Below, piece after piece: positions 9,639 to 54,352 of a DNA stretch of 64,000 nucleotides. The stretch is taken from contig NC_013407.1 of NCBI RefSeq assembly GCF_000024625.1, positions 248,001-312,000 on the forward strand, written 5' to 3'. Position 1 is the stretch's first letter. Each line of letters opens with the position of its first letter. The stretch is from Methanocaldococcus vulcanius M7. Its GTDB lineage: Archaea; AGJL01; Methanococci; Methanococcales; Methanocaldococcaceae. A program made the translations under genes and the position numbers. The notes under the pieces are model-generated. The model was not told the origin of the DNA, made no database searches, and saw only the letters and a program-made list of their open reading frames with translations.

Positions 9639-9964
9639 GGTGTGCATGGCTTCCTTGGGGTGGGTATCTCTCCCAGACCTCTCCTTGACCCCAGACCTCT
9701 TCTCCGTCCCGCACCCCCGTGAGCGCCGACGTCCTGCCTACCGTTGCTCCCTTCCGGGCCTGGCGGGGTTCGGCAGGTAAAGGGGGTTATCCCTCCCCTA
9801 CAGGAGGGACTCCCCCTCCGCCGAGCCCCACGGGACGAGACCTCATCGAGAGGCCTGGGAAGGAGAGGACGGGAGAGTATACCGCCCCCAAGTTTTCGGC
9901 CCCCGCATAAGGGCGATTTCGGGTTACAGGGGACGCCCAACCCCCCGGCCTAGCCATGCACACC
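9639..9964 (-). ncRNA. Signal recognition particle RNA (7S RNA)
   Basis: A 326-base GC-rich island in AT-rich DNA. Read on the minus strand, the 5' end (GGTGTGCATGGCT) is exactly complementary to the 3' end (AGCCATGCACACC), giving the archaeal terminal helix. The conserved helix 8 is present as GCCAGGCCCGGAAGGGAGCA with its GGAA tetraloop, followed by the matching strand ACGGTAGGCAGG. It is the RNA scaffold that binds SRP19 (gene at 41985) and SRP54. Transcription ends in a T-rich stretch just left of 9639. Confidence 0.97.
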
Positions 9965-51687: not shown

Positions 51688-51706
51688 TAATTTTAAAATT
51701 TTTATA

Positions 51707-52282
51707 TCTCCATCCTCGAAGAGGTCTGATTTTAATTTCAGATGCATTATTAAAAAAACTTCCAGTAATTTACAAAGTTTCCATCCTCGAAGAGGTCTGA
51801 TTTTAATATATTCTTTTATTAATCTCTTCCATTAATTCTATTTTCCATCCTCGAAGAGGTCTGATTTTAATGAGGATGAAGACACTTTGGAAGAATGGTT
51901 TAAAAGGGCTAAGAGATTTTCCATCCTCGAAGAGGTCTGATTTTAATGGCTCACAGGCAGTTATAACCGTAACATATACATTTCCATCCTCGAAGAGGTC
52001 TGATTTTAATTTAGCTTAGCATCAATAACTTTTAAGATAATTTGTATTTCCATCCTCGAAGAGGTCTGATTTTAATTTGATATTGTTATGCAAATATATA
52101 ACACAACAGAATTTCCATCCTCGAAGAGGTCTGATTTTAATGGATTAGTTGAACAGTATTTCTACCCAAACTCAATTTATAGATTTCCATCCTCGAAGAG
52201 GTCTGATTTTAATCAAGTATTTTTTTAGAACTTAATAAAAAGGAACTAACCCTTTCCATCCTCGAAGAGGTCTGATTTTAAT
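51707..52282 (-). CRISPR. CRISPR array, 9 repeats / 8 spacers
   Basis: Plus-strand repeats read TTTCCATCCTCGAAGAGG then TCTGATTTTAAT, at 51707, 51778, 51842, 51918, 51981, 52047, 52112, 52184 and 52253 (30 bases each). Spacers are 33-46 bases. The array is transcribed leftward from the leader at its right. The leftmost repeat has one change and is the oldest. The ends of the repeat equal those of the left array (ATTAAAATCAG... and GATGGAAA), but the centre CCTCTTCGAGG is a different stem. Confidence 0.98.
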
Positions 52283-52678: not shown

Positions 52679-53245
52679 TTAATAATAGCCAGCAGTGTTC
52701 ATCGTTTCTAACTTTTCCTTTAATTTTAAGGCCTCTTTTATCTCTTCCTCCTCAAATGGTCTTTCTGAGGCAATGGAGACGATAGCTTTGTCTATATAGG
52801 TGTTTTTAACTCTCATCCCTTCTGGAAACACCCTTCCCATGAAGTCCATAACTTTATCTAAAAAATCCTTGCTTGCATCATAAACCTCCATATCTAAATC
52901 AATATCTGAATCTGTAATAACTTCAAATCTTGAAGGTTGATCGATAACGTGTATCTTTTTTAGTAGGTAGGGGAGATATGTTTCATCAGTTATTTTAAGT
53001 TTGTAGATTGTTTTTCCATTTTCTTTTTTCTGCTCCGCAATTTCAGCAAAGTCCCTCAACTTAATAGCCCTTCTTGTGTGCTTTGGTAGAACCCCTAATA
53101 TGAAGTATGGAACCTTCTCCTTTGCTATAAATTCAACCCTAATTATTGACTTTCCTAAAATTAAATCCTCTAATGCCGTTTGTATAACCTTTGTATAGAT
53201 GTTTTTTCCTGCTTCATCTTCACAATGAACAATTATCTCAGCCAT
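52679..53245 (-). CDS. DUF2067 family protein
   Basis: 188 residues from the ATG at 53245 (MAEIIVHCEDEAGK), behind GGTGATAGT. The frame upstream of that ATG runs through the hairpin element at 53271-53303 and is not part of the protein. The product is soluble alpha/beta, with ALEDLILGKSIIRVEFIAKEK and IDKAIVSIASERPFEEEEIKE. It fits DUF2067 of archaea from memory; the function is unknown. Confidence 0.7.
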   Translation of the reverse strand: MAEIIVHCEDEAGKNIYTKVIQTALEDLILGKSIIRVEFIAKEKVPYFILGVLPKHTRRAIKLRDFAEIAEQKKENGKTIYKLKITDETYLPYLLKKIHVIDQPSRFEVITDSDIDLDMEVYDASKDFLDKVMDFMGRVFPEGMRVKNTYIDKAIVSIASERPFEEEEIKEALKLKEKLETMNTAGYY

Positions 53246-53270
53246 ACTATCACCATTTGTTGTCGCTAAG

Positions 53271-53303
53271 GAAGTTCCGCTCTTTAGAGTGGAGAGGAAT
53301 TCA
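53271..53303 (+). repeat. 33-base hairpin element, copy A (IS200/IS605 right-end-like)
   Basis: Reads GAAGTTCCGCTCTTTAGAGT then GGAGAGGAATTCA. It matches copy B (53486-53518) at 25 of 33 positions. The changes include three compensatory pairs: positions 4/30, 5/29 and 11/18 change from weak to strong pairs together. It lies just upstream of the DUF2067 start. Confidence 0.6.
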
Positions 53304-53399
53304 GATGAAAACCTAACGGTTTTCATTACTCTCCTCGCTACGCTCGAAGATAGGGGAGGCGGGCGGGGATAAGGTTTATATATTCAAATTGGCTTATTA

Positions 53400-53518
53400 T
53401 TTATCGAGGCGGTCTGACCCCGCCCAATGAGCTGAATCTGCCCAATGACCCCTCGGCGACGAGGATGAGAGGGTGTTCCCAGTGGGAACCTCCACCCTTT
53501 AGGGCGGAGAGGAGGTCA
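53400..53518 (+). mobile_element. GC-rich structured patch ending in hairpin copy B; possible TnpB right end / guide-RNA remnant
   Basis: A GC-rich island in AT-rich DNA. In order it holds a GGCGG/CCGCC hairpin (53408-53424), CCTCG-GCGA-CGAGG with a GNRA-type loop (53451-53464), GTTCCC-AGT-GGGAAC (53475-53489), and the 33-base hairpin B ending GGAGAGGAGGTCA (53486-53518). A TTTATATA element at 53375-53382 could start an RNA near 53402. Ends of the type hairpin-GGGGAGGA..TCA are typical of archaeal TnpB elements, whose guide RNA 3' part is encoded at the right end. No tnpB frame remains. The family assignment is inference. Confidence 0.5.
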
Positions 53519-54352
53519 AGAAACTTCTTCTTTAAGCATTAAGTCCAAAATCTCTTTTAGATTTTTATGTTTTAATTTACCCATAACATTTATAATTAGA
53601 ATTGGCTTTCCCCCAACATAAGAATAAATTATCTCTTTATCTTCATCAGAGAGTTTTTTACCTAAAATCTCTTCAGCTAAAAAATCCATAAACTTTAAAG
53701 CTGTCTCTTTATCAAAATCATCCACTAAAATATAATCAGCTCTATCCTCCAACTCTCCAGCATTATAAACATATTCAATGAATAAACTATCTGAACTTAG
53801 GCAGAAAACATGACATAGGTGTTGTTCTTTAGTTAAAGAAACTAAAAACTGGAATAACTCTTTTAACAGATACTTTTGTCCGTTGAGGACTACATCTCTA
53901 ATCATTTGCAGTTCATCAAATATTAAAATTGGCTGTTTCCCACTCTTTTTAACCTCTAATAATAAGCTATTTAAGTATTGAAAAGCATCATTAATCTTCT
54001 CCTCAAATAGTTTATCAAATTCAACCTCTGGTATTGGAATCCCAGTTAAAATCTTAGCCCCTTTTGTTATCAGATTTAAAACTTCTGATTTATCTATTAT
54101 TTTTTCAAAGAAGTCATCTTTTTTAGTGGTAAAAATTGCCTCAATAAACTCCCTCTTTTCTGAGATTAAGTAAGTTCTAAAATTTATATAAAAAACCTTA
54201 TACTCATCATTTAGTTTGTTTTCAATAATCTGCTTTATTAGAGCAGTTTTTCCAGAGTTTATAGAACCATAGATAAAATAAATTAAATTTGGTTCTCTTT
54301 CTAAGATTGATAGAATTTCATTAATCTCCCTCTCCCTATTAAAGAATTTCAT
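53516..54352 (-). CDS. Archaeal ATPase (AAA, PF01637 type), C-terminally truncated
   Basis: 278 residues; relatives in M. jannaschii are about 350-370. The opening [15 protein letters not shown], the P-loop [15 protein letters not shown] and the Walker [13 protein letters not shown] are intact, as is [11 protein letters not shown]. The C-terminal winged-helix part expected after [12 protein letters not shown] is missing: the frame ends at a TGA made by the last bases (TCA on the plus strand) of the hairpin element. This looks like truncation by insertion. The start ATG follows GGTGGAATT. Confidence 0.8.

Follow-up and report, generated by a model that had tools for sequence, protein, structure and literature searches.

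The two similar hairpins at 53271-53303 (copy A) and 53486-53518 (copy B) of the window, the 64,000-nucleotide stretch of Methanocaldococcus vulcanius M7 DNA analysed here, do not resemble each other by chance; they are the start and the end of a repeated sequence of ~250-266 bp, and this sequence is an IS200/IS605-type element without transposase genes (PATE). We consider it probable, at roughly 0.86, that this is a non-autonomous element moved by TnpA in trans, with an internal promoter of its own and with HgcC as a guide RNA for TnpB. Copy A is a left-end DNA hairpin only and lies outside the RNA, while copy B has two roles, as the DNA hairpin of the right end and as the hairpin that closes HgcC at its 3' side.

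Results

Copies A and B are the ends of one mobile element

Ungapped alignment of A and B reproduced the identity at 25 of 33 positions given in the original prediction, and all three of its two-sided pair changes were present as described: from A to B, G-T becomes C-G at 4/30, T-A becomes C-G at 5/29 and T-A becomes C-G at 11/18. A bulge separates two helices, the outer one containing pairs 4/30 and 5/29 and the inner one 11/18. The differences at 9/20 do face each other, as had been said, but the G-T of A corresponds to A-C in B, which is a non-pair. The two copies are in direct orientation at a spacing of 215 bp, and the G+C content of the stretch that contains them is ~0.40-0.60, versus 0.2-0.4 in the surroundings. 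The features discussed below are as follows (window coordinates, strand):

52679-53245, minus: methanogenesis marker 17 gene (TIGR03291), start codon 53243-53245; its ribosome-binding site is the insertion target
53250-53253, plus: TCAC, target tetranucleotide (CL) retained 5' of the element, as seen from the empty sites
53254-53519, plus: whole mobile element, 266 bp, CATTTG...GGTCAA; a PATE without tnpA or tnpB
53271-53274, plus: GAAG, putative left guide (GL) at the foot of hairpin A; its G and A would pair with the C and T of TCAC
53271-53303, plus: copy A, comprising the guide and the left-end hairpin; presumably bound by TnpA
53375-53382, plus: archaeal TATA box TTTATATA, inside the element, 24-31 nt upstream of the HgcC start
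53406-53518, plus: HgcC RNA scaffold, read as a TnpB omegaRNA/reRNA (Rfam RF00062 model match 53406-53530)
53486-53489, plus: GAAC, putative right guide (GR) at the foot of hairpin B; would pair with the TC of the right cleavage site
53486-53518, plus: copy B, both the element's right-end hairpin and the HgcC 3' hairpin
53516-53519, plus: TCAA, right cleavage site (CR); nearly all other copies have TCAG
53516-54352, minus: ATPase gene (PF01637, ATPase_2), C-terminally truncated beside the element relative to its orthologues
53519-53535, plus: flank in guide position, here ATPase-gene sequence joined to the element by a deletion

When the element was compared by BLAST with the same genome, five full-length copies were recovered (91-100% identity), and its left part was also found in three longer elements. 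Aligned copies start with CATTWGTTGTCGC directly after TCAC and finish with GGTCAG. For an empty-site search, the left and right flanks of each copy were joined and then sought in relatives; relative G004 had uninterrupted sites for three of the five copies, two at 96% and one at 89% identity. All three consist of exactly TCAC followed by the right flank, and target duplication is absent at each. Because these empty sites are exact, the element is mobile and its borders are fixed at 53254-53519. Its end hairpins share one orientation and terminal inverted repeats are absent. The left-end hairpin recurs in 39 elements of M. vulcanius and related genomes. Thus the hairpins have the role in transposition that had been offered as one alternative, A at the left and B at the right end of one IS200/IS605-type element. 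Restoration of a reading frame upon removal of one element (L008) was considered as border proof and dropped, a deletion joint being possible there, judging from homologues in that ATPase family; the G004 empty sites serve as border evidence in its place.

These features recall the PATEs of Haloquadratum walsbyi (PMC3119063), which likewise have near-terminal palindromes, no inverted repeats and no target duplication, and which also occur in terminal-only versions of ~52 bp. Unlike in those elements, the core here encodes a covarying RNA, and the TCAC target puts copies at ribosome-binding sites. Terminal-only elements of ~51 bp were seen in our set as well: in L044 (G000:C1:573643-573770) and L107 (G008) the left-end hairpin is fused to the right-end tail, as if by recombination between hairpins A and B. 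A second type of PATE (L006, L007 and L008, near 989.4, 841.6 and 23.9 kb of G000:C1) has the left part in common but a TTTAC target, and carries an RNA of the tnpB-3'-end type, that of L006 matching sot0042 (RF02656) weakly. One further HgcC element, L109 (G024:C1:1665172-), encloses an open frame of 317 codons resembling a DDE-type transposase.

Guide bases follow the target

IS608 of Helicobacter pylori recognises its target, TTAC, and its right cleavage site, TCAA, through base pairing with guides at the hairpin feet, GL AAAG and GR GAAT (PMC5934647). The same GL/CL and GR/CR pairing rule appears to apply to the present elements, in which the putative left-end guide base co-varies with the target (TCAC with G, TTAC with A, TGAC with C). 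The first GL base was G at 16 of 17 left ends with TCAC, A at 16 of 20 with TTAC or TTGC (the remaining four being G, a wobble pair) and C at both of those with TGAC; over the 39 left ends, GL-target pairing was Watson-Crick in 34, wobble in four and mismatched in one. With the TGAC-C combination left out, the association of C/T with G/A gave a Fisher p of 7e-6, an optimistic value, since the hairpin base served as a manual anchor for the 39-left-end alignment and the sequences share ancestry. GL AAAG with TTAC is common to IS608 and to the TTAC elements of this set; GAAG with TCAC and CAAG with TGAC are natural variants unlike IS608. The tnpA of the M. vulcanius genome is a pseudogene with three stops, whereas intact tnpA genes are found in G001 and G016, that of G001 being adjoined by a left end of the same type (L112). 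The element is probably moved by a TnpA (Y1) acting in trans.

Insertion at ribosome-binding sites

Read on the opposite strand, TCAC gives GTGA, a part of the archaeal ribosome-binding site (Shine-Dalgarno). GTGA followed by ATG 2-9 nt on was found at 12 of 15 TCAC insertions, versus 42 of all 187 GTGA in the window (p = 4e-6) and 23 of the 61 that are intergenic (p = 0.001); selection against insertions into genes could explain part of this start-codon bias. In the window, the TCAC reads on the other strand as the GTGA of the GGTGA ribosome-binding site belonging to the marker 17 gene, and the first base of the element restores GGTGA. That gene had been guessed to encode Pcc1, which was rejected as NCBIfam gives methanogenesis marker 17.

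At its other end, the TCA of the element is, on the minus strand, the TGA stop of the ATPase gene, whose orthologues in G007 and G001 (L157, L158) extend well past KEEVS/KEEIS. By this comparison, the original right flank of the window copy is deleted, and its RNA, if made, would therefore carry a guide without a matching empty site. The other four full copies end in TCAG, and the flanks of three are confirmed by the G004 empty sites. A CRISPR array with DR39-type repeats (51706-52282, plus strand) lies about 1 kb from the element, and the archaeal SRP RNA is encoded at 9643-9960 on the minus strand (252.9 bits).

The element carries a structured HgcC RNA

HgcC was first discovered in M. jannaschii. 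The founding study is that of Klein et al. 2002 (cited in PMC4247193), and PMC5732400 lists HgcC as an RNA family in its own right, with its function unresolved. The Rfam model of this family (RF00062) matches 53406-53530 on the plus strand, a stretch containing B, with 102.4 bits against a gathering score of 50; 25 loci exceeded the cut-off, in 9 of 36 Methanococcales genomes. The TATA box is conserved in most HgcC elements and, together with the HgcC start, fits the transcript start that had been proposed near 53402. Across the 25 loci, conservation holds through GAGGAGGTCAG, and the sequence beyond GGTCAG is unrelated. This break agrees with the proposed guide role of the bases following TCA, but in the window copy the original flank is gone.

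Among 24 HgcC sequences, 96.2% of paired cells in the structure were occupied by pairs, versus only 36-56% for slid structures, and 11 pairs showed two-sided changes versus 4.3 in shuffles, with 0 of 500 shuffles reaching 11. B lies inside this structure, and the RNA alternative of the original prediction is supported as well. A pseudoknot of TGACC with the 3' GGTCA was rejected, neither side varying informatively. These data bear on an alternative in which the DNA hairpins alone matter, the sequence being an IS605-derived miniature element recognised by TnpA and HgcC an omegaRNA leftover under no present selection at the RNA level. Such an account would suit the terminal-only copies without the RNA, the two copies with an 18-nt deletion within it and the lack of class I TnpB in the M. 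vulcanius genome (see below); it is at odds with the covariation, with the retention of promoter and RNA in nearly all element copies, and with HgcC expression, which the founding study verified on northern blots and dRNA-seq confirmed for T. kodakarensis (both as reported in PMC4247193). We regard it as unlikely.

HgcC is related to omegaRNAs and lies beside tnpB in relatives

TnpB is the ancestor of the CRISPR nuclease Cas12. When 72,556 plasmids were searched by BLAST, Azotobacter, Pseudomonas and Variovorax gave matches to the last 40 nt of HgcC at genes annotated as TnpB or 'transposase'; every match lay at the 3' end of the gene, on the gene's own strand, and spanned the stop codon. An HgcC-like right-end hairpin was also seen on an Enterobacter roggenkampii plasmid (L126, 1801-1838) and in about 10 similar Enterobacter records with no annotated tnpB; these are possibly bacterial elements without tnpB. 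On Halobacterium pNRC200, the sotRNA model RF02656 (E 2.7e-18) and the HgcC model (E 6.7e-5) coincide in place, and the sotRNAs (RF02656/RF02657) are regarded as omegaRNAs (PMC12558985). HgcC matches to bacterial and haloarchaeal omegaRNAs scored 25-35 bits, under the Rfam gathering score of 50, and are weak but independent. The haloarchaeal sotRNAs have the 3' hairpin in common with HgcC; they differ in their 5' halves and in sitting in sense within tnpB genes.

A class I tnpB lies between the left end and HgcC in five elements of five relatives, intact in G004, G005 and G012, split in G024 and truncated in G016. As to the search for further copies next to tnpB that the original prediction proposed, five full copies are present in the M. 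vulcanius genome, but a matching tnpB adjoins copies only in relatives. The TnpB encoded with HgcC in these five has the RuvC D, E and D residues and a zinc ribbon; the class I protein (358 aa in L056) matches Cas12f/TnpB structures with a best E of 1e-26, and ISDra2 TnpB (8bf8) with an E of 8e-12. A search for class I TnpB gave matches in two metagenome bins only among genome contigs, and none among viral contigs. Position, structure and relatives together make a TnpB guide RNA the most likely identity of HgcC, which is predicted to bind TnpB and to supply the guide. HgcC and TnpB were not found mentioned together in the literature searched, most subscription papers lying outside its scope.

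Reversed tnpB and orphan HgcC copies

In all five tnpB-bearing elements, tnpB is directed towards the left end and HgcC is read divergently from the opposite strand, so HgcC cannot be cut out of the tnpB mRNA. A sense HgcC overlapping the tnpB 3' end was not found in class I elements; that arrangement occurred only in bacterial relatives, and is also reported for T. kodakarensis, where HgcC1-3 are transcribed in sense, starting within transposase genes, while P. furiosus HgcC is antisense to a transposase gene (PMC4247193). No class I TnpB was found in the M. vulcanius genome, in which the best match was a 412 aa class II protein at 31% identity, nor in the HgcC-bearing G001, G008 and G013. 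The HgcC copies of M. vulcanius would thus be orphan guides, and in cells without class I TnpB HgcC may have no partner. The HgcC elements L103 (G005) and L089 (G013) share their insertion site and flank, yet only one of the two contains tnpB; either tnpB was lost in place or the site was targeted repeatedly.

A rival reading makes the class II protein (G000:C1:47.2 kb) the partner of HgcC, driving class I elements in trans. Class II right ends have the CTCCGCCCTTTAGGGCGGAGAG hairpin in common with HgcC, and class I and II elements share left ends and promoters in the M. vulcanius genome; set against this are the low protein identity, the TTTAC target and different, sot0042-resembling scaffold of class II elements, and a target-adjacent motif that would have to differ (TCAC), and we find the partnership distinctly improbable. 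Another rival takes HgcC for a regulatory or modification-guide RNA of the host that has nothing to do with TnpB and is carried by chance. The separate family listing of HgcC and the orphan copies directly upstream of host genes speak for this view, but it is very hard to reconcile with the right-end position of the RNA, a 3' hairpin homologous to tnpB 3' ends, the overlap with the sotRNA model and the tnpB inside the element in relatives.

Discussion

Under our reading of HgcC as a TnpB guide RNA, the element would be moved as single-stranded DNA by a trans-acting TnpA-type (Y1) transposase. Transcription from the internal promoter would run past the scaffold end at GGTCAG, and the flank would become the guide; the cognate TnpB with HgcC would then cut the empty site (TCAC plus flank), and repair would copy the element back. 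With a reversed tnpB between the left end and HgcC, the RNA would come from a separate, divergent promoter, and loss of tnpB from the M. vulcanius genome would leave orphan guide RNAs behind.

This scheme resembles that of the ISDra2 TnpB reRNA/omegaRNA (PMC8612924), in which a right-end RNA is followed by flank as a guide of ~16 nt and the TAM is the insertion target 5' of the element. HgcC differs in having its own promoter and in lying upstream of tnpB on the opposite strand where tnpB is present; its elements use TCAC rather than TTGAT and are often without tnpB. The reversed tnpB also sets class I elements apart from characterised TnpB loci, in which the RNA derives from the tnpB transcript. 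The window RNA belongs to the HgcC family, and unlike earlier descriptions, which leave its function unresolved, ours places it in a mobile element, as a TnpB guide RNA.

The orphan state may be a stable strategy. A bolder proposal, to which we would give slightly less than even odds, is that HgcC elements are guide-only selfish elements: the guide has split from tnpB, onto the other strand and under a promoter of its own, tnpB is often dropped and orphan guides persist, while a one-base change of GL from AAAG to GAAG retargets the element to TCAC and so to a harmless landing upstream of genes.

The retargeting of IS608 achieved in the laboratory has a natural counterpart in the series TCAC/TTAC/TGAC, from which the element plausibly benefits. 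If true, the reversed layout of tnpB and HgcC would mean that omegaRNA production need not rely on the tnpB mRNA. Placement as a TnpB guide accounts for the patchy, multi-copy distribution of HgcC, and for this RNA, without a function since 2002, makes function directly testable.
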